DNA of 64,000 nucleotides from an uncultured Pseudomonadota bacterium (GCA_913055645.1 CAJXLC010000009.1:1-64000), one strand, 5' to 3'. Shown: positions 25,917 through 38,138, counted from the first letter of the stretch. Numbers and translations: made by a program. The notes: generated from the sequence alone by a model not told the origin.

Positions 25917-26747
25917 TTAGAGAAGTTTCCAGAGTCGCTTTCCTTTAAACATCACACATTCCCATTTGGAATAATGTCCTTCTGGTATTTCTGTTGCACC
26001 CGTAAATAAATAACCGCCTTTTTTCATCGTTTTTGCCAAACGATCAATCACATTCATGCGCTCTTCAGGCGAAAAATAAATCAATACATTACGACAAAAT
26101 ACAATATCAAAAGGTCCAAAACGACGGACTTGACTGACCAATGCGTCATTGACTAAATTTCCATTTTGAAACGTCAGCATTTCTTTTAACTCATCACATA
26201 CAAACCAATCAAGACCTTCTTGCGTAAAAAAGCGCACCAATTGTTTCACAGGCATACCACGCTGCACTTCCATCTGAGAATATTTTGCCTCGCGCGCATA
26301 AGCAATCGCACTTTCTGACAAATCAGTTCCTAAAATCGAAACGCGTTTATCCGCCATTGGCACAGTCTCAGAAGCTGTCATAGCTATGGAGTATGGCTCC
26401 TGACCTTTGGATGAGGCCGCAGACCATATTTTTATATTTCCATGACCATTCCCAACATGTATTAGCTCTGGGAATACCAATGTTTTCAAAGCTTCAAAAG
26501 GATAAGTATCTCGAAAAAATAACGTTTCATTGGTTGTCATCGCATCCAAGAAATGATGTGCAAGTTTGCTGTTTTCATCACGTTTAATTTGTTGAGCCAA
26601 GGCATCCATGTCAGAAATTTCAAAGTTACGTAATAGAGCCTGCACACGCGAACGAATCAAATATAATTTACTATCATCCAACACCAAACCACTTTTATGC
26701 AGTAAAAATTCCCGCAAATAACGAAATAGCTCTGGTCGTAGACTCAT
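25917..26747 (-). CDS. cheR: Chemotaxis protein methyltransferase CheR
   Basis: Adds methyl groups from S-adenosylmethionine to glutamates of chemoreceptors. It has 276 residues with an all-helical N-terminal domain (1-80) and a SAM-binding domain with TNETLFFRD, KIWSAASSKGQEPYSIAM, ILGTDLSESAI and DIVFCRNVLIYF. The ATG overlaps the cheB stop (ATGA). It is the last gene of the chemosensory operon. The single MCP of the operon shows no obvious C-terminal pentapeptide tether for CheR. Confidence 0.95.
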   Translation of the reverse strand: MSLRPELFRYLREFLLHKSGLVLDDSKLYLIRSRVQALLRNFEISDMDALAQQIKRDENSKLAHHFLDAMTTNETLFFRDTYPFEALKTLVFPELIHVGNGHGNIKIWSAASSKGQEPYSIAMTASETVPMADKRVSILGTDLSESAIAYAREAKYSQMEVQRGMPVKQLVRFFTQEGLDWFVCDELKEMLTFQNGNLVNDALVSQVRRFGPFDIVFCRNVLIYFSPEERMNVIDRLAKTMKKGGYLFTGATEIPEGHYSKWECVMFKGKRLWKLL

Positions 26748-27811
26748 AACCCACCCATCCCACAATATTTCATGATAGCGGCTGCAATATCATTAAGTGC
26801 TATAATCTCACTAGCAGCCCCTACCTTTACAGTTTCTCCAGGCATTCCCCAAACCACACTACTGGCTTTATCTTGCGCAATAACATGCATATTTTTACCG
26901 GCTAATGCCTTTGCTCCCGCCGCACCATCATTGCCCATACCTGTCAAAACAACAGCCATCGTGCAAATACGCGGTGCCAATACTGCTAACGAATGAAATG
27001 TTACATCCACAGCAGGCTTGCAATGATTAACCCGCTCGCCATCCACCAAATGTACGCGCAATTGGGTTCCAATACGTTCAATTTCCATATGAATATCGCC
27101 AGGCGCAACATAAATACAGCCCGATTTCAATACCATACCATCTTCTGCCAGTTTACATGTTAAATCAGTATCTTTTTCCAACCTCTCAACCAATGAAACA
27201 AGAAACAATTTCGGCATATGCTGCGTGACCACAATTGGCACAGAAAAAGAGGCAGGTAACATATTTAAGACATGATGCAGTGCAACAGGACCACCTGTAC
27301 TCGAACCAATCGCAATAATATCAGGGCAACTTCTACGGTTTCTTGTAGTGTTTTTCACCATGCTTGTCGGTTTATTCTTACCCACCCTACGCTGCGTAAC
27401 AGTGGCAATACTTCGTGCTAATGGAATTTTTTCTTTTAATAGTGTCTGCAGAATATTCCTTGGTTTCTTTTCCAAACAAGTCGATTTCAAAATAAAGTCA
27501 TAAGCCCCAGATTCGAGTGCTTGAACAGTTTTTTCTGCACTGGTTTCCGATTCATTGGTAATCACCAATACGTGCACCTCTGGTGCTTCTTCTTGCAAAC
27601 ATTGCAATACTTCAATACCCGTTAAAAAAGGCATTTCCATATCCAGCGTCACCAAGTCAGGTTTGAGTGTTTTAATTTTCTGTAGCGCATCCCGTCCATC
27701 ACGCGCTACGCCCAACACCTCTATATCCTCCATCTCACTCATACAGCTACGTAAAAAGGTGCGGAAAATCGCATCATCATCAACAATCAATACACGTATA
27801 GATTTATTCAT
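26744..27811 (-). CDS. cheB: Chemotaxis methylesterase/glutaminase CheB
   Basis: Removes receptor methyl groups when phosphorylated by CheA. It has 355 residues. The receiver domain is at 1-120 with the acceptor Asp57 (LVTLDMEMP). A basic linker (135-163) leads to the esterase domain with the triad in AIGSSTGGP (Ser171), TQHMP (His198) and TGMGNDGA. It overlaps the cheY stop at its start by four bases and cheR at its end. Confidence 0.96.
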   Translation of the reverse strand: MNKSIRVLIVDDDAIFRTFLRSCMSEMEDIEVLGVARDGRDALQKIKTLKPDLVTLDMEMPFLTGIEVLQCLQEEAPEVHVLVITNESETSAEKTVQALESGAYDFILKSTCLEKKPRNILQTLLKEKIPLARSIATVTQRRVGKNKPTSMVKNTTRNRRSCPDIIAIGSSTGGPVALHHVLNMLPASFSVPIVVTQHMPKLFLVSLVERLEKDTDLTCKLAEDGMVLKSGCIYVAPGDIHMEIERIGTQLRVHLVDGERVNHCKPAVDVTFHSLAVLAPRICTMAVVLTGMGNDGAAGAKALAGKNMHVIAQDKASSVVWGMPGETVKVGAASEIIALNDIAAAIMKYCGMGGL

Positions 27812-28191
27812 TTTTCGTACGCAATACCAACAATATCTAACTTATCCATCACCATCTCTTTATCAAATGGCTTCATAATGTATTCATCCGCACCTGCTGC
27901 AAGCGCTTTCAACATCGATGGCATGCCCGTTTCTGTCGTAACCATAATAACCGAAGGCTCTGTGGTATATTTGGCATCAGAGCGCAAAGCCACTAAAAAT
28001 TCATAACCATTCATCACTGGCATATTCCAATCCAAAAGAACCACCGATATATCATCATGCGCTTGCATCTGCTCTTGAGCTAACGCGCCATTGGCAGCTT
28101 CGAACACTTCAAAACCAAGTGCCTGCATAATACGCCCCAAGGAAGTACGCACGACCTTGGCATCATCCACAATTAATGCTTTTTTTGTCAT
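27808..28191 (-). CDS. cheY: CheY-like single-domain response regulator
   Basis: A receiver-only protein of 127 residues with the acid pair Asp9-Asp10, the acceptor Asp54 in VLLDWNMP, Thr in MVTTE and the conserved Lys in IMKPFD. It is the phosphorylation output or a phosphate sink for the CheA in the same operon. It ends overlapping cheB by four bases and starts 25 bases after cheW. A second CheY-like protein is encoded at 31838-32215, so the pathway has two separate regulators plus receivers in CheA and CheB. Confidence 0.95.
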   Translation of the reverse strand: MTKKALIVDDAKVVRTSLGRIMQALGFEVFEAANGALAQEQMQAHDDISVVLLDWNMPVMNGYEFLVALRSDAKYTTEPSVIMVTTETGMPSMLKALAAGADEYIMKPFDKEMVMDKLDIVGIAYEK

Positions 28192-28216: not shown

Positions 28217-28717
28217 TCAATGTAATACTGCTTGATCAGGTGCACCCTGCTCTGCACTGGGTATCGTCAAGGCAATAAATTTATCCACATTCACCAATAC
28301 CAAAACACCTTGTTCTAATTTCAAAACACCTTCACTCACGTGTCGCCAAATAGCATCCAGTGAGCGCGGTGTTGGTTCATAATTATCAAGGTTCAATAGC
28401 ATCACTTCACCTACATCATCCACAGCCAAACCGAAATCTTCCCCCGAACTGCTTTCAATAATCGCCACATGACAAGATTCACCCTCAGCTCGCTCTGGCA
28501 AACCCACGACTTTGCGCACATCCAGCTCAGTCATCACCCGACCACGCAAATTAATCAGTCCAAGCACCGCATCAGGACTCAAAGGCATTTGAGTTCGTTC
28601 CTGATTGGTAACCACTTCGCGCACTTGCTGAACATGAAAACCAATCCATTGCTCGCCTACTAGGCAGGTTAACAATTCAGTATGTATCTGTTCTTTCACT
28701 GCCACCAATGCATTCAT
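28217..28717 (-). CDS. cheW: CheW-like coupling protein
   Basis: Links receptors to the kinase CheA. It has 166 residues from MNALVAV; the start at 28717 is preceded by GAAGGGAG. It is a single CheW/SH3-like domain with CLVGEQWIGFHVQQVREVV, GLINLRGRVMTELDVRKVV and GLAVDDVGEVM in family order. The start overlaps the 3' end of cheA slightly outside the chosen codon (cheA stop at 28749), leaving 31 bases between the genes. Confidence 0.92.
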   Translation of the reverse strand: MNALVAVKEQIHTELLTCLVGEQWIGFHVQQVREVVTNQERTQMPLSPDAVLGLINLRGRVMTELDVRKVVGLPERAEGESCHVAIIESSSGEDFGLAVDDVGEVMLLNLDNYEPTPRSLDAIWRHVSEGVLKLEQGVLVLVNVDKFIALTIPSAEQGAPDQAVLH

Positions 28718-28748
28718 ATATGACTCCCTTCTTGAACAAGCATGTGCA

Positions 28749-31655
28749 TCAAATGCTGTCGTCCGCATCTACAATCACTGCGCCTTCAACACTCAAAGGT
28801 TTTTGCTTCCTTATATTTGCCATCACTTCACTTAATCCTTCAGTTAAACTCTGCCGATCCAGCTTCAACATCACTTCTACAAACTTATCCCTATGCGCAA
28901 CATCAATGTCATCTACCGGCGTAGCCGTTAGCGCAACAATCGGGATATCATCAAATTCTTCACGTCCTCTCACCCAGTCAGTCAATTCATAACCATTCAT
29001 ATTGGGCATTTCCAAATCGGTTAGAATTAAATCAGGTCGCCTTTCTTCCAAAATTTTACATGCTTCAATGCCATCTTTTGCCACCCATGCTTCATAATCT
29101 AAAACATCAAAGATTGGCATTACCAAGTTTCTAAAAAATGCTGCGTCTTCAACAAATAATATTTTTTGTCGCAGACTTATATCATCTGAACTGGATAAGT
29201 TTGATGATCTGCGTGCAAACCAATTGACATCTACTTTTTTTACCACTTCAAATGCATCAATCACTTCAGTTGCCATACCATCAACCACTGATGTACCTAA
29301 AAACAGTGGGTCATCCGATTGTGTTTTAATTTCTAACGGTGTTTCAAGAATATCTTCTACTTGTTCAACCTGTAAACACATCCGCTTATGCCCATCTGAT
29401 AAGATTAAAGCATACACCTCACCACTGCATAGCCGCTCCCCAACTTCAATCAAATCACCCCAACGAATCACAGGGATCACATCATCACGGTATTGTAAAA
29501 CCTCTGATGTTCCAGAATATTCAATACGTTCAGCAGGAAAAAGCTCCAAGCGCTCAATCAACACCATCGGAATAGCAAAGCGTTGCTTACCCTGAGAAAA
29601 AACTAAGGTATGTTGCAATTCATTCTCAGAAAAGTCACTTTCATCATCCTCTTCATCTTGGCGCATGGCTTCCACTTCTGAAGAAAGCTGCATCAGGTTC
29701 GCCAACTCATTACAATCAAAAATGGGTATTACAATACCATCACCCAAAATACTGCAACCACCATAAAGCCCTAAATGTTGAAAGTGTACACCCAATGGCT
29801 TAACAACAATTTCCTCAGCACCATAAATTTGATCAACCAAGACGCCAAAGTTTCGATCTCCCAAATCAATCACCACAATCGAACCTGCATCTTCAATGCT
29901 ATCGCTCAATTGCAACTTCTCTTTCAGTCGCATGATGGGTAATAGCTTTCCACGCAAACGGTAAAATGTTTGCCCACCAATCACCCGCCATTCTTGCGAA
30001 TCCTTGGGCGCACTCAATAACTCTTGGATACTCATTTGAGGAATAGCAAAACGTTGATTTTGGCAACTCACAATCATCGCCGAAATAATTGCTAAGGTTA
30101 ACGGAATACGAATACGCAGCGTTGTTCCCTTACCAGGCTCACTGCTGATATCAACATTGCCACCCACTTTCTCAATTTCGGTTCGCACCACATCCATACC
30201 AACACCGCGACCAGATAAATTACTAACCTTTTCAGCAGTCGATAACCCAGCATGGAAAATAAGCTGAAGCGCAGCTTTATCACTAATCTTTTCACCTTGT
30301 TCTTCGGTCAAAACGCCCATCGTAACAGCTTTCTTTTTCACCCGTTCTGCATCAATGCCAGCACCATCATCTTCAATAAGAATCACAATAAAGCCAGATT
30401 CCTGCGAAGCTGATAAACGCAACGTGCCTTCATCAGGTTTACCCGCTTTACGCCTATCATTGGGCATTTCAATGCCATGATCACAACTATTGCGGATAAT
30501 GTGTGTTAAAGGGTCTTTCAAGGCATTTAGAATCGTACGGTCCAGCTCTGTTTCTTCTCCATGCATCACGACAGATATTTTCTTTTCCAACTGTTTGCCC
30601 ATATCACGAACAATACGAGGCACACTATTCCAAATACTCTGAATCGGTTGCATACGTGTACGTAGTAACTGCGATTGTAGTTGCTCCGTAATATGATCAA
30701 TATCGCGGCTAACACGCACAAACTCCATATTCCCCGAAGCTTGCACCATTTGAACCAAACGATTACGGGTTAATACCAACTCACCCACCTGATTCATCAA
30801 AGAATCCAATAAACCCACGTCCACACGAATACTTCCAGCGCTTTTAGGCTTCACAGAACTCGCTTTTTTCTTCACTGGAACAGGGGCAGCGGCTTGAGGT
30901 TCAGAAGCTTTTTCCTTCACTATCTCAACATTGCTTTCCTGATGTACCTCTGTGCTAGCTGGCTCAACATCCATTTTTTCAGCCACTTTTTCAGGTAATT
31001 TGGCTTTCTCTTCTTTGCTGGAACTATTCGCCGCTACTTTAGCAACACCCAATAATTTCAATGCATCGCCAGCTGTAAAACCATCCAGTTCTTTCAACTT
31101 CGCAAAACCTACATCTATGACTGCTTGGGCAGAAAGCAAACCATTATTTACCAATGCACCTGCAGCTTCTTCGGATACATCTGCCGCCCATGTTTTAAGC
31201 TCCGCCAAGGCATCGCTTCCTGCATTTTCTTGTACAGGCTCAGCAGCAGGCTTTTCTTCACCATCCATCGTTGCCACCAAACGCTCAGCAGCATGCAAAC
31301 GATTAATCAAACCACTATAATCTATATCTGGCTCTGCACCTTCCGCTTCAAGCCCATCCAACAAACTGGTAATGGCATCCGCACACTCCAATAATAATGA
31401 TACAAGGTCTGCATTCATCTCAAACTTTAACGAACGTATTTTACTTAAAAGATTCTCGCCCGCATGCGCCACCTTTTCCAGTCCAACTAAACCAAGGAAC
31501 CCACAACTACCCTTCACCGTATGAATAGCACGGAAAATTGCCCCCAGAATTTCTTCATCTTGAGGGTTTGCCTCTAAATCCATCAGTTGTTGCTCGATGG
31601 CAGATAGATTCTCGTTACTTTCCGTTAAAAATTCCGCTAATAGTTCTTCATCCAT
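28749..31655 (-). CDS. cheA: Hybrid chemotaxis kinase CheA with two CheW-like domains and a receiver
   Basis: A 968-residue kinase. The HPt domain (about 1-105) has the phosphorylated His45 in AIHTVKGSCGF. A small helical segment at about 150-210 (KLKELDGFTAGDALKLLGVAK, resembling a helix-hairpin unit) replaces the usual P2 domain. Then come an acidic/Lys linker, dimerisation and ATPase domains (about 275-540; ILIEDDGAGID, GRGVGMDVV, GTTLRIRIPLT). Two CheW-like domains follow (QNQRFAIPQMSI and KQRFAIPMVLI, about 545-815), then a receiver domain (about 835-955; LILTDLEMPNMNG). Duplicated CheW modules plus a fused receiver are unusual and give the kinase its own phosphate acceptor. Confidence 0.95.
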   Translation of the reverse strand: MDEELLAEFLTESNENLSAIEQQLMDLEANPQDEEILGAIFRAIHTVKGSCGFLGLVGLEKVAHAGENLLSKIRSLKFEMNADLVSLLLECADAITSLLDGLEAEGAEPDIDYSGLINRLHAAERLVATMDGEEKPAAEPVQENAGSDALAELKTWAADVSEEAAGALVNNGLLSAQAVIDVGFAKLKELDGFTAGDALKLLGVAKVAANSSSKEEKAKLPEKVAEKMDVEPASTEVHQESNVEIVKEKASEPQAAAPVPVKKKASSVKPKSAGSIRVDVGLLDSLMNQVGELVLTRNRLVQMVQASGNMEFVRVSRDIDHITEQLQSQLLRTRMQPIQSIWNSVPRIVRDMGKQLEKKISVVMHGEETELDRTILNALKDPLTHIIRNSCDHGIEMPNDRRKAGKPDEGTLRLSASQESGFIVILIEDDGAGIDAERVKKKAVTMGVLTEEQGEKISDKAALQLIFHAGLSTAEKVSNLSGRGVGMDVVRTEIEKVGGNVDISSEPGKGTTLRIRIPLTLAIISAMIVSCQNQRFAIPQMSIQELLSAPKDSQEWRVIGGQTFYRLRGKLLPIMRLKEKLQLSDSIEDAGSIVVIDLGDRNFGVLVDQIYGAEEIVVKPLGVHFQHLGLYGGCSILGDGIVIPIFDCNELANLMQLSSEVEAMRQDEEDDESDFSENELQHTLVFSQGKQRFAIPMVLIERLELFPAERIEYSGTSEVLQYRDDVIPVIRWGDLIEVGERLCSGEVYALILSDGHKRMCLQVEQVEDILETPLEIKTQSDDPLFLGTSVVDGMATEVIDAFEVVKKVDVNWFARRSSNLSSSDDISLRQKILFVEDAAFFRNLVMPIFDVLDYEAWVAKDGIEACKILEERRPDLILTDLEMPNMNGYELTDWVRGREEFDDIPIVALTATPVDDIDVAHRDKFVEVMLKLDRQSLTEGLSEVMANIRKQKPLSVEGAVIVDADDSI

Positions 31656-31837: not shown

Positions 31838-32215
31838 TTAAAACAACATACCGCCCACCATTTCTATCAATGCATCCGGTTCAAAAGGTTTCACCAGCCA
31901 TGCAGAAACGCCCGATTCATGACCAACCGATTTCTTATCTTCACCCGACTCCGTTGTTAGCATTACAATGGGTGTTTCTGTATAAGCTGGAATAGCGCGA
32001 ATATTCTGAATCATAGTCAAACCATCCATATTCGGCATATTCAAATCAGTTAAAATCAAGTCATAAGGGTTATCAGCCGATGCTGTTGCCTTGTCTAAAC
32101 CAATCTGTCCGTCTTTGGCCTCATCCACTTGAAAATCAACTTTTGCCAAGGTGCGTTTCACAGTAATCCGCACCATGGTTGAATCTTCAACGATTAATAT
32201 TCTTGGGCCGCTCAT
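31838..32215 (-). CDS. CheY-like response regulator coupled to the channel gene
   Basis: A receiver-only protein of 125 residues starting at MSGPRILIVEDSTMVR. The acceptor is Asp57 in LILTDLNMP, with Thr in MLTTES and Lys in LVKPFEPD. GAAGGAGG precedes the ATG, which overlaps the stop of the giant channel gene (ATGA at 32212-32215). Such tight coupling suggests matched amounts of regulator and channel. This is the likely partner of the CheZ-like DxxxQ helix at the channel C-terminus, though that is inference. It has no DNA-binding domain. Confidence 0.94.
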   Translation of the reverse strand: MSGPRILIVEDSTMVRITVKRTLAKVDFQVDEAKDGQIGLDKATASADNPYDLILTDLNMPNMDGLTMIQNIRAIPAYTETPIVMLTTESGEDKKSVGHESGVSAWLVKPFEPDALIEMVGGMLF

Positions 32216-35200
32216 AACTCCTCCTTCAAAACCATGCGTTCTTCTTCCATCACATAACGCTGACTTACTTCCTCTTGCCATAATGCAGCCTGACCACTTT
32301 CAGGCACATGATTCGACCAATCCTTCAAACAACTTTTCACATTATTCAAACGCTGTGATACGCGATCAATATTTTGTAGGTCCGTCAAAGCCGCCATAAT
32401 CAATTCTTCGACTTCTTCTGATACACCCATATCAAGGACTTCAGTCAGTTTGACCAAGCCTTCTTCACAGCTCTCATTCAATAGCTCTAAGGATCCGCCA
32501 ACCTGCTTTTTAAGCACCCTTAACAATCGTTTATCCGCTTGCTGCGGCCACACAGAATCATTCATCACTTCACCTTCCAATACAGCCTTTTCCAATCCTG
32601 TTTCGGCTTGTTTTATGATACCTATATCTTTATCATCAATACTTTCTTCAACTTGCTCTAAAGCTTCATTTTCAACTATTTTTTCTACCACTTCTTCTAC
32701 AGTCTCTTCTAAATCTTCTTCTATAATGTCCTGCTGTATACTTTCAGACGTTGCTTCAGAATCCTCTTCAACAACCTTTTCGCTCATCGTAGCAGGCTTC
32801 TCTTCAACCACGTCGTTAACATCTGCAACAACCTTTTCTACCACGGCTTCTTGTACAGATGTTTCAATGGCTACCTCGACGTTACTCTCTTCTCTTTCAT
32901 TTGCACTCAACACGCCACGGCGACAAAATAATAAAGTCACCGTTTGAGCAGGCACATCCATTTCCATGACAGGTGAACCAGCCAATAAATGCATACGACT
33001 ACCTGTATCATCTTGTGGCTGTGGAAACAGCTTATCCAACACTGTAAATGCCGTTTGCCCATCACGTTCAACTTCTGGCATTACATATGCCATAAGCATC
33101 CATCCACGGCGCAAGGCTTCTCGATATACAGGTACCCAATCCATGTCCGCTTCAATTTCCACCAAGCGCGTGGTTGCCACATCTTCGACGAGCACAGTGT
33201 CGCCCAACATGGCATCCATAAACGCATAGCTTTTTTCATCTTGTTGGCTTTCCTCCTGATTCAAATGCTTTCTAGCATGGGTAAGCAACTGCCTTGCCAT
33301 AAACACATCGTGAAAAGCATCTGGCGAACCCACATCCACTGCCAAATCAGGATAATTCAGTCCTGCCATTTCAAAGGATGAAACATGCTCACCACTTCGC
33401 GGCAATATCATTAGCTTGGGTGGCGTCCACCATTTTACCTTGGCTTTGCGCTCTGAGAGTACGCGTGCCACTTCATGGAACCACAATTCAAGCAGTGAAT
33501 CTTCACTACCATTGGACTGCTCTTCAGGATAAAACATCATCACCTTGCAACCACGCAGCAGTGATTCCCAAACCGAATTATCCAACCCATCCCAAGCATG
33601 TAGCGATACTTTTAACTCACATTTACAATGTGTCGCAGCGCGTTCACACGCATCTTTTATACTACGATTTTGTAGGGTAAGTTTATCCTCATGCACCGTG
33701 CTCAACACATGTACGGTAAGCTTATGATGTTTGAGTGCCATTTCTTCAACCATGGCAGGAAGACCTGCATGCCAACCCAAGAAAATCATGGATAAATCCC
33801 ATGTTTCAGGCCATGTGAATTGTTTTAGGGTATTTTCATGCGGCTGATTTTCATTCATGGACAACGCTCCTTCCATGATACCAGACCAAAGCAATGTCGA
33901 GCCGCCCAACCCTACAACATCAGTGAATGTTTCACTCTTTTCAGCATGCATTAAATCACTAAACAAAACGAACGAACCATCTTCACGTCGCGCTGCCAAA
34001 AGGTTCACACCTGCTGCAAAACAATCGCTTAACCATGCATCCAAAACTTGTGATGATTCGCCCACTGATACCATCACCATGCCACTACCAGACTGCACTT
34101 CAAATATCCAAGGCACTGTCTTTAATCCTATCTCACCTGCCACCGCATCGAGCATGCGAATACCCAATTCTGGCATCCAAGCGCAATGATGCATTTGATA
34201 CAACATCCGCGCTGCCACTGATGCTGAATTTAATACCGACATGGACATGGAATCGCCATATAATGATTGCAATCGTGGAGACAACCCTGCTTCTGAGATC
34301 AGCATACCATCCACATTAAAATCGCGTGCCAAATGATGATTATCTACCAAACTTTCCGTGTTGATGCTTTCGTTTCCTTTCCGAAACAGCACCAACTGCC
34401 GAATACCAGATAAATGAAACCGCTCCATCAAACCACGACTGCCAGATTCAACTTCACGTACTGATAACCAACTACCAATCGTCGTTGCGCCATCCATCGC
34501 CTGGCCATGAAAAATCCACACCGAAGACATACTTTGCCTCATACGAGCAAAGAACTTGTCCAGCCTTTTGAGAATCAGCAATGCTTGATCATTGCTACCT
34601 GCCAAGACCATCTGCTCACGTGCTGATAGAGAGCTATTACGCAATTCACGTAACATATATTGCATAACATTTGAGCCAAGGTTTACCATCAATGCAAAGA
34701 AAAATACGCCCGAAAGCACCAGCAACGCTGTTAATCCCACTAACCACGGTGAGAATGCTTCTGGTGTCGCAGCACCAGGGTCGGTTAGCACCCGAAAAAC
34801 ATACAACATCACCTGAAATGGCAAATAATCTGCCGGTGTAATATTACCATCATCATTAATATCCATTTCAGGATAAAGGTAAATTACTGCCAATGAGCCC
34901 ATAATCATCATCGCCACCAGCATACCTGCCAACATACTGCTTTCACTACGAACTTCTTGTATAGCAAGCACCCGTTTGGCTGCTTTGGCAATATTACCTA
35001 CAGGATTAAGCATTACCAAAAAACGAATCGCACGCAGCCCAACCCAAGCTGCTGCCACACCAGGAATAAGACCCAACACAGCAATACTGACAAGCATATC
35101 CAACGATACAAAAGCCAATTCTGCCTTTTTGCGCCCACCATCGGGTAAAACTTTAAGAATAGATACCGTACGACATACACCTTCAATCAATAAAAACACA

Positions 35201-35817
35201 CCGATATACATCGCGACCCATGGTATGGCGATAGCAACACATGCCATCGCCACCACAATCAAGGCAAAAGGCAGGGAGTAAACAAATGTATCGTGGGTAA
35301 GAAAACGAAATATTCGCAACATCCGCAGCATATACATACCACGGAAAAGCCTAGCAATACGCAAATAAACAGCCTGATGTAATGGGTTCACTGGCATAAA
35401 TAGAGCTGAAATAAGGCTCATCGTTGCCAAGCCATCCAATATCAAAAACACCAGTTCAGAACGATTACGAAAGCGATTCTCTTTTTGCAACCAAAAGCGC
35501 AAACACCATTCAACCACAAAAAATACACCCAATGTCGCCAATACAAAGCTATAGCGCTCAAACATGCATAACACAAGCGCAACAACGATTAAAATAGCAT
35601 ACCTAGGATGTGAAAAGACACGCTCGCCCAGCAGCAGCCACTCACGGCGTGAATGCTCACCTGAAATCCAACGTTTCACCCAAGCAGATTGCGAACGCGG
35701 TGTTTTTTTTACATCAGCATCCGCCATCTCATCTAAAACCTCATGTGAGACCTTATCTGATGCACTCAACACATCGTTTGCATCATTTACATCGTTTGCT
35801 GGTCCCACCTTCACCAC
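32212..35817 (-). CDS. Giant CASTOR/POLLUX-like ion channel with RCK domains and CheZ-like tail
   Basis: A 1201-residue protein with GTG start (GGAGGT upstream). Residues 72-172 form four membrane segments, the fourth carrying Arg153, 156, 159, 165, 168 and 171, the three-residue spacing of a voltage sensor. A second set of four segments is at 180-285. A pore pair follows at 292-390 with TDPG (345-348), as in CASTOR/POLLUX channels. Between S5 and the pore, residues 319-330 fit a 12-residue EF-hand/dockerin calcium loop. RCK-like domains start at 400 (REQMVLAGSND) and 672 (IFLGWHAGLPAMVEEM). Residues 975-1088 are an acidic linker; 1089-1201 are helical with IDRVSQ (Asp1151, Gln1155), like the CheZ DxxxQ site. 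It lies between an MCP and a CheY gene. Ion and ligand are unknown. Confidence 0.8.
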   Translation of the reverse strand: MVKVGPANDVNDANDVLSASDKVSHEVLDEMADADVKKTPRSQSAWVKRWISGEHSRREWLLLGERVFSHPRYAILIVVALVLCMFERYSFVLATLGVFFVVEWCLRFWLQKENRFRNRSELVFLILDGLATMSLISALFMPVNPLHQAVYLRIARLFRGMYMLRMLRIFRFLTHDTFVYSLPFALIVVAMACVAIAIPWVAMYIGVFLLIEGVCRTVSILKVLPDGGRKKAELAFVSLDMLVSIAVLGLIPGVAAAWVGLRAIRFLVMLNPVGNIAKAAKRVLAIQEVRSESSMLAGMLVAMMIMGSLAVIYLYPEMDINDDGNITPADYLPFQVMLYVFRVLTDPGAATPEAFSPWLVGLTALLVLSGVFFFALMVNLGSNVMQYMLRELRNSSLSAREQMVLAGSNDQALLILKRLDKFFARMRQSMSSVWIFHGQAMDGATTIGSWLSVREVESGSRGLMERFHLSGIRQLVLFRKGNESINTESLVDNHHLARDFNVDGMLISEAGLSPRLQSLYGDSMSMSVLNSASVAARMLYQMHHCAWMPELGIRMLDAVAGEIGLKTVPWIFEVQSGSGMVMVSVGESSQVLDAWLSDCFAAGVNLLAARREDGSFVLFSDLMHAEKSETFTDVVGLGGSTLLWSGIMEGALSMNENQPHENTLKQFTWPETWDLSMIFLGWHAGLPAMVEEMALKHHKLTVHVLSTVHEDKLTLQNRSIKDACERAATHCKCELKVSLHAWDGLDNSVWESLLRGCKVMMFYPEEQSNGSEDSLLELWFHEVARVLSERKAKVKWWTPPKLMILPRSGEHVSSFEMAGLNYPDLAVDVGSPDAFHDVFMARQLLTHARKHLNQEESQQDEKSYAFMDAMLGDTVLVEDVATTRLVEIEADMDWVPVYREALRRGWMLMAYVMPEVERDGQTAFTVLDKLFPQPQDDTGSRMHLLAGSPVMEMDVPAQTVTLLFCRRGVLSANEREESNVEVAIETSVQEAVVEKVVADVNDVVEEKPATMSEKVVEEDSEATSESIQQDIIEEDLEETVEEVVEKIVENEALEQVEESIDDKDIGIIKQAETGLEKAVLEGEVMNDSVWPQQADKRLLRVLKKQVGGSLELLNESCEEGLVKLTEVLDMGVSEEVEELIMAALTDLQNIDRVSQRLNNVKSCLKDWSNHVPESGQAALWQEEVSQRYVMEEERMVLKEEL

Positions 35818-35891: not shown

Positions 35892-38138
35892 CTAACGGCG
35901 ACGCAATGCGGCTAAAAAATCACGCACCCGCTGGGATAAACCTTCCCCTTTTTGACGAATATCTGTGGATGAAGTGAGCACATCTCCTGCAGCTTTACCT
36001 GTTTCATTCGATGCTTCTGTCACCGAAGAAATCGCCTCTGTCACACGCTGAGTTGCATCTGAGGCATATTGCACACTTTGAGAGATTTCACGGGTTGCTT
36101 CATTTTGCCCTTCTGTAGCAGCAGAAATCGCTTGGTTAATATCATTCATCTTTTGAATGGTTTCGCCAATATGTCCAATCGCTTTGGCTGCACCATCACT
36201 CTCCTTCTGAATAGATGAGATTTGACCTGCAATTTTTTCAGTCGCTTGAGCAGTTTGGTTGGCAAGCTCTTTGACTTCGCCCGCAACCACTGCAAAACCA
36301 CGGCCAGCCTCACCTGCCCGTGCCGCTTCAATACTGGCATTGAGTGCCAATAAATTGGTTTGTTCTGCAATATCCGTAATCACTCGAATAACCTCACCAA
36401 TTTCTTCCGATACCTTGGCTAATTTCGTAACATTTTGATTGGTCGTTTCAGCTTCTTCCACTGCTTGACCTGACATATCCACAGCATCACGCACTTGGCG
36501 TGTAATTTCTGCAATTGAAGCTGTCAGCTCTTCTGCTGCAGATGCCACAGTCATCACATTTTCATTCGCCTCAGCAGAGCTATGGGAAACGCTTTCTGCT
36601 TGTGTTGTGGATTGTTCGGCAGTGCTAGAAAGGGTTTCACTCGCAGTCTGCATGCCCACTGATGCCTCAATCAAATCATTGACCAAGGCTGCGACATTAC
36701 TTTCAAAGTCTCCCGCTAATTGATGTTGCTCAGACACATCATTCCACGACACCATCACAGAGTCCCATTCACCCTCATGATTATCAATGGCATGCGCAGA
36801 AAATTCGATCTCATGACCATCCGCCTCAAAACTTGCAGACATTGGAAATGCAGCCCTATTGGAAAGTAATTTGCGCTGGTGCGAAGGATCTTTGTGAAAA
36901 ATATCAATGCACTGCCCAATCATGTTATCCACTCGACAAGGTAAGAAATTCTGTAGTGTTTGAAATAGTTCCGTTGCTGCTGGATTCATATAAGTAATTT
37001 TCAAATCTTTGGCATTTGCAATCATGGTTGCCTGTGGTGATGCTTCTACCACACGCCGTAAAAGCGTGGCTTCAGCGGATTGTTCTTGAAAAATAGCCAA
37101 CGATTCCAACATCTCACCAATTTCACCGCCTTCATCGCCAACCACAGGAATCACATCACCTCTTTCCAATGCATCCATAGAAGTCGCAACACGTGCAATC
37201 GGATCACCAACCGACCTTGCAATTCTCCAAACAGCCAACATTACAAATACAAACACCAACAACATAATGCCTATATAATAACGCGGCAAAACTTTCATAA
37301 CATACGCATATTCTTCATCCAACTTCGAAAGATAATCACCAAGCGCTTCATCTGCTGTGTTAAAGTCATTCATTATCGGACCTTGGAAACTAGCTTCCAA
37401 CGCTTTAGCATCGTGCAATAATTTTGTATTCATGGTTGCATACTTCATGAAGCTTTGTTCATAATCATTCATAAGCATCAAAATTGATTGCTTCTCAGAA
37501 CTGGCAAGATTTGAGGATGCCAATAAACGTGCAAAAATAAGCTTTTCTTCTTGGAATTCTTTCACATACTCTAATGAACTGCGCAGCATAAAATCTTTTT
37601 CATGACGGCGAAGCATCAACATCGACGTCAACAATTTATCCTGCTTAAAGTGCTCCAGCTTCCTCTCAGCAGCATGTACCTTATCTCGAAAATGACCCTG
37701 CAGCCCGTCATTCTCGTTCATGCCAAGTTCTGGGCGCATGGCTATCACTTTTTCAGCATTGACATCATAGCTATCTACAATTTCTTTTAACGCTTCAACA
37801 CTTGCTTTCACCTTTTCATTAGGCGCTCTTTCAAGCAAGTTATGAAGCTCTTTAACATTCTCTTTTTTTAACGATTGGTACGCTTCCAATGCATCTGGGT
37901 GCTTATGCACAGCATAAAGCTGAACCTTACGCGCCTCTACAGATAAACTCGTTGCCAGCCCATCCAACACTTCCATGGTGTCACCCGCTGCAATCTGTTC
38001 ATTTGAAATATCCAACAAACTCGTAACCATGTATTGATGCGTAATTGCAGATGCTAGCAATCCCAGCAATGCCACAACACCAATCAGTGACAAACGTTTC
38101 ATAATAGAAAATTGCTTTAGATTTAGTAAATTCATCAT
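35892..38138 (-). CDS. Methyl-accepting chemotaxis protein with HBM-type sensor and PAS domain
   Basis: A 748-residue receptor. Membrane helices are at about 15-34 and 286-306, enclosing a long all-helical periplasmic domain. Its [12 protein letters not shown] segment is typical of helical bimodular (HBM) sensors, which bind organic acids in characterised cases. A HAMP domain (about 307-360) is followed by a PAS domain (about 363-465) and the signalling hairpin with [26 protein letters not shown]. It has both an external and an internal sensor. It is the first gene of the operon, with a sigma-54-like promoter just upstream. The channel gene follows after 74 bases. Confidence 0.94.

Follow-up and report, generated by a model that had tools for sequence, protein, structure and literature searches.

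The DNA analysed here (the window) is a stretch of 64,000 nucleotides from an uncultured Pseudomonadota bacterium; coordinates are counted from its first letter, and all features described lie on its minus strand. We confirmed the 1,201-residue gene reported in an earlier note on this DNA, at 32212-35817, as an open reading frame that begins with GTG (35817-32212) and encodes, based on an AlphaFold model and Foldseek, a channel with tandem voltage-sensor domains (VSDs), a pore, two RCK-like domains and a DxxxQ tail. Based on Pfam, an MCP with PAS and weak HAMP matches lies upstream (35892-38138), and CheY1 (31838-32215), CheA with a C-terminal receiver (28749-31655), CheW (28217-28768), CheY2 (27808-28191), CheB (26744-27811) and CheR (25917-26765) follow, which meets the definition of a canonical che operon (that is, cheA, cheW, cheY, cheB, cheR and an MCP together). 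The channel's TGA stop (32214-32212) overlaps the ATG of CheY1 (32215-32213) as ATGA, read directly in the sequence, and the channel does sit, as previously described, in a che operon between an MCP and an overlapping cheY. Using the channel as a single sequence, searches of Pfam, NCBIfam and the PDB gave no significant match. Because its core is conserved at 39-91% identity across 35 homologues, the gene is not a chance open reading frame.

The AlphaFold model of the channel was built with 36 sequences, a shallow homologue alignment, and reached a pLDDT of 81 and a pTM of 0.78. The architecture shown by the model comprises ten transmembrane helices (S1-S4, S1'-S4' and S5-pore-S6) followed by two alpha/beta RCK-like domains. 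VSD1 (residues ~71-173, 35299-35607) and VSD2 (residues ~182-284, 34966-35274), both also supported by conserved charges, precede the modelled S5-pore helix-S6 unit (residues ~287-393, 34639-34959), the RCK1-like domain (residues ~403-652, 33862-34611; profile search, model and Foldseek) and the RCK2-like domain (residues ~674-967, 32917-33798; model and Foldseek). The weakest part of the model is the S3-S4 region of VSD1 (pLDDT 54-58). A DPG pore motif, identified from the sequence and its conservation in homologues (residues 346-348, 34774-34782), is present within 'RVLTDPG', matching the TDPG noted before.

The best PDB matches found by Foldseek were the gating ring of LjCASTOR (E = 2.9e-14; TM-score 0.64 by target), Slo1, Slo2.2, MtDMI1, GsuK and MthK, and on this basis a double RCK gating ring of CASTOR type is present in the model. 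Four transmembrane segments are predicted for CASTOR (PMC6697748), and this CASTOR/POLLUX topology is not met by the ten-helix model. A profile of the che-type channel found nothing, and a profile of the flagellar-type channels (see below) matched DMI1, CASTOR and MthK weakly in the RCK1 region (0.013-0.1) and a bacterial CASTOR-like protein at 3.5e-9. The proposal of a CASTOR/POLLUX-like channel with a voltage sensor, a pore and two RCK-like domains is thus supported by the fold search and weakly but coherently by the profiles. We infer a channel that is presumably tetrameric and conducts Ca2+ or another cation.

The assignment as a voltage-sensor channel also stood, except that there are two VSDs in tandem instead of one. 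VSD1 has five conserved S4 arginines together with an invariant S2 glutamate and S3 aspartate (the charge-transfer centre), and so fulfils the charge requirements of a voltage sensor. Both S2 helices carry E/R and both S3 helices D; the acidic residues of VSD2 are kept, but it has just two conserved S4 arginines in che-type channels, compared with five in flagellar-type ones. When VSD1 was compared with VSD2 by hhalign, P was 3.2e-7 for the che-type channels and 2.8e-9 for the flagellar-type ones, against 0.77 in a control comparison with the pore. An internal duplication therefore relates the two S1-S4 units, which gives two voltage sensors per pore. Voltage dependence of the channel is an inference without electrophysiology.

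The turret between S5 and the pore helix, predicted to be periplasmic, contains an EF-hand-like loop of 12 residues in its sequence, DINDDGNITPAD (residues 319-330, 34828-34863). Position 1 is Asp and position 12 is Asp or Glu in 50/50 sequences, and the full EF-hand pattern was found in 21 of the 36 che-type loops, with no other match in 46,239 windows. None of 14 flagellar-type loops matched the full pattern, and both end aspartates were kept in them. Ca2+ may be a ligand or permeant ion of the channel; this is inferred and is helped by the fact that CASTOR is a Ca2+ channel (PMC6697748).

Following the RCK2-like domain, a variable acidic linker (residues 968-1078, 32584-32916) without any match to other genera leads to a C-terminal tail of 123 residues (residues 1079-1201, 32215-32583), delimited by the model and by conservation. 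The tail consists of a helical hairpin (pLDDT 86) with an invariant D and Q in DRVxQ, followed by a conserved C-terminal helix, and is CheZ-like by motif: its DRVSQ (32353-32367) is a DxxxQ whose D1151 and Q1155 are invariant in alignments. DXXXQ is the described phosphatase motif of CheZ (PMC7750401), and the tail carries it on a helical hairpin, as expected of CheZ. Some channels end in two or three tandem copies of the tail (L124:1922-6946, L112, L113 and L129), L124 having an additional stand-alone copy of the module, and the D and Q were kept in 37/37 tail motif copies found, tandem copies included. One genome (G016) has the DxxxQ module alone in a che operon that lacks the channel; there cheA comes next, so a rule that the tail always lies beside cheY is not strict.

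Related modules were also found outside the Zetaproteobacteria, where MCPs of about 400 residues end in a QFQDRxxQ module (L172:4376-5584, L193-L199), and in the loci read from these other Proteobacteria cheY and cheA adjoin the MCP gene. This MCP-tail module, for which Pfam has no family, may represent a CheY phosphatase that has yet to be named. Between the zeta modules and the MCP tails, invariant positions are limited to the Q, D, R and Q of QxxDRxxQ. The MCP tails read FQDRVSQ, in register with FQDLTGQ of CheZ.

Searches left sequence homology between the tail and CheZ unproven. Aligned to the CheZ family with hhalign, the tail gave a probability of about 1%, which is not significant and fails as evidence of homology; Pfam CheZ did not match the zeta modules and was reached by one MCP tail of the wider group only at 0.0018, below the curated cut-off; and a fold search with the tail gave nothing beyond generic helical hairpins, CheZ being absent from the 50 matches listed. 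It is plausible that the tail functions in the manner of CheZ, its phosphatase activity being inferred, but it has not been shown to be a CheZ. Nor need it be the sole phosphatase, because a separate CheC/CheX-type protein is encoded on another contig of the same genome.

A few candidates related to the tail or channel were rejected. Apparent stand-alone tails in three genomes (G012, G033 and G008) end their contigs and are therefore no evidence for separate genes, the break in a seemingly split channel gene (G026) coincides with a run of N, and small f33 proteins with weak tail matches (L174-L176) lie away from che genes and were taken as chance.

Based on mean identity to other genera, the best-conserved parts of the operon are CheY1 (78%), which is its most conserved protein, the tail (64%), VSD1 (61%) and the pore (56%). 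This pattern fits a working voltage-sensing channel with a tail that acts on CheY1. A different possibility is that the main task of the channel part is to keep a constitutive CheZ-like phosphatase close to the MCP array, at the membrane or the pole, with ion flow serving homeostasis and exerting no control over the phosphatase. Long and very variable linkers would suit such tethering, and the tail modules found elsewhere are anchored too, by fusion to MCPs; however, the VSD, pore and EF-hand residues are conserved more strongly than an anchor needs, and the same channel core is present without a tail in flagellar operons. We consider simple anchoring unlikely.

The genome of the locus is Mariprofundaceae-like (Zetaproteobacteria), judging from named relatives, and the carriers are deep-sea iron-oxidising bacteria. 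A scan of 84,980 species recovered 40 related loci, which derive from Zetaproteobacteria or their genera except for one assigned to a 'Proteobacteria bacterium' (L107; 86% identity to the window). Because the scan used two short peptide patterns, distant forms of the channel were possibly missed. Cultured carriers include Mariprofundus micogutta ET2, M. erugo P3 and strains EBB-1 and KV. When 399 genomes from the phylum were searched with a profile of the sister family, the one match outside the class (G378) was a plain bacterial CASTOR-like protein with 'RAMDPG', and the viral contigs searched contained no relative.

Within the reach of the contigs, the channel has the same che operon around it in each of the 40 named loci, and every sufficiently long related locus has the order MCP - channel - CheY1 - CheA - CheW - (CheY2) - CheB - CheR. 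Homologues lying mostly away from che genes would have refuted the proposed association; instead, an MCP was found upstream and a CheY downstream wherever the flanks suffice. Across 78 genomes of the class, FliG and any channel of the family co-occurred (50 genomes with both, 3 with FliG only, 5 with a channel only and 20 with neither; Fisher p = 4e-11, uncorrected for shared ancestry). FliG without a channel was found in G016, G018 and G076, and is more divergent in the latter two. These two are single-contig genomes with flagellar and che genes (L224-L226) and have neither the channel nor the DxxxQ module; because such flagellated, che-positive zeta genomes lack the channel, it is not universally required.

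It could be argued that a cation channel of the Zetaproteobacteria is merely hitch-hiking in the operon and that its tail is an assembly or localisation coil, given that there are no biochemical data and that the CheZ homology of the tail is not significant. We regard this as very unlikely, since the linkage of channel and che genes is invariant across genera and families and includes the start-stop overlap with cheY1, a second member of the family lies in a flagellar operon, the channels co-occur with flagella, and relatives of the tail are found at cheY-cheA in unrelated bacteria.

The second member is a paralogous tandem-VSD channel of about 950 residues, which lacks the DxxxQ tail and is encoded in the flagellar operon of most of the Zetaproteobacteria read. 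Of 18 paralog loci read, 11 (L031, L032, L033, L043, L046, L047, L049, L050, L052, L187 and L025) have it between motE-like and fliK genes or adjoining one of them, the operon order being fliF-G-H-I-J-motE-channel-fliK-flgD-flgE. FliI, FliK, FlgD and the MotE-like protein were assigned by Pfam in L047 and the others by position and size, with FliG also by a further search. Other contexts were seen as well: one paralog (L189:7680-10553) adjoins a second che cluster (cheY-cheA-cheW-MCP-MCP), and the tail-less paralog in the genome of the locus (L026:8161-11031, contig C5) adjoins GGDEF-EAL and ABC transporter genes outside the flagellar operon.

Alternatively, the tail could be a receptor and not an enzyme. 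CheY1-P would then dock on it and open or close the channel, and the chemosensory output would be broadcast by shifting the membrane potential or the cytoplasmic Ca2+ level, a signal that the flagellar-operon paralog might read. Gene linkage and the conservation of CheY1 also fit such an effector, and the paralogs share the channel core in flagellar operons and, in one case, beside the second che cluster. Nonetheless, the catalytic-type DxxxQ is retained in every tail copy, and the module is found apart from any channel in G016 and at the end of MCPs in other bacteria, so it does not serve channel gating alone; a purely effector role seems to us rather unlikely.

The earlier suggestion that the channel acts as a sensor or effector of the che system was strengthened by the DxxxQ tail near cheY and by the flagellar-operon paralogs, but with the discovery of the tail module the favoured mechanism shifts to a channel-controlled CheY phosphatase. 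Under this mechanism, a CASTOR/Slo-like cation channel, presumably tetrameric, would reside in the inner membrane, each subunit contributing two VSDs, one pore with a turret loop of divalent-binding type and a double-RCK gating ring, and each tethering a CheZ-like CheY-P phosphatase module by the flexible acidic linker. The channel and its gating ring would change state in response to membrane potential, to an intracellular ligand bound by the RCK ring (Ca2+ being a possibility) or to both. Depending on that state, the tethered phosphatase would be more or less active on CheY1-P, or more or less accessible to it, and the electrical or ionic state of the cell would in this way reach the flagellar motor through the level of CheY1-P. 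We give about even chances to the channel being a membrane-gated CheY1-P phosphatase that couples voltage or ions to the motor signal, with the CheY-P phosphatase activity (for which biochemical data are lacking) and the direction of coupling both inferred. A broader interpretation, in which the two-VSD channel is a voltage- and ion-gated chemotaxis enzyme with direct control of CheY-P breakdown and forms, with its flagellar-operon sister, an electrical layer of signalling in the flagellar system, is possible but held more tentatively.

From the sequence and the structural models we predict that the voltage across the membrane, or a flow of ions, may act directly on how the cell steers. Should this hold, a single polypeptide would bring membrane potential or ion flow into the chemotaxis phosphorelay, at signal termination and not at the receptors. 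Energy or electrical taxis in bacteria inhabiting opposed Fe(II)/O2 gradients would then have a definite molecule that can be put to the test, voltage sensors would be known in a new arrangement with two for each pore, and channels would be tied to the flagellar gene cluster. The role of the channel is testable because cultured carriers exist (Mariprofundus micogutta, M. erugo, EBB-1 and KV).

Among known systems, CASTOR/POLLUX/DMI1 channels are close in the cytosolic part, where the gating rings of LjCASTOR and MtDMI1 are the best fold match; a double RCK ring and a pore without TVGYG are shared, and an ordinary bacterial CASTOR-like protein (G378) likewise has the DPG pore. CASTOR is a Ca2+-regulated Ca2+ channel (PMC6697748). 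Unlike CASTOR, the channel described here has ten transmembrane helices, two VSDs, an EF-hand-like turret and a DxxxQ tail. Slo1 (BK) and Slo2.2 likewise match in fold and combine a VSD, a pore and RCK1-RCK2 in a single chain. Slo channels have one VSD per subunit; they differ further in lacking a phosphatase-like tail and in having the K+ filter TVGYG, which is missing here. The tail resembles CheZ in its helical hairpin, DxxxQ, conserved C-terminal helix and gene location beside cheY, but its hairpin is shorter, it has no significant sequence homology to CheZ and it is covalently joined to an ion channel. Precedents for a link between ion channels and chemotaxis or motility in bacteria are NaVBP of alkaliphilic Bacillus, according to the title of a cited study (Ito 2004, cited in PMC4225499), and the prokaryotic Cys-loop receptors, with a predicted chemotaxis link (PMC549065). 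Among the titles and abstracts listed by searches of open-access papers, subscription papers being outside the scope, none described a channel fused with a CheY-phosphatase-like module, a tandem-VSD channel with a single pore or a channel encoded within a flagellar or core che operon, and the view that no chemosensory system with such a channel has been described holds to that extent. To our knowledge, neither NaVBP nor the Cys-loop receptors are fused to a chemotaxis signalling enzyme or located in a core che operon. The parts of the channel are of known kinds and their combination is new; a demonstration that the channel gates the phosphatase would justify a separate category for it.
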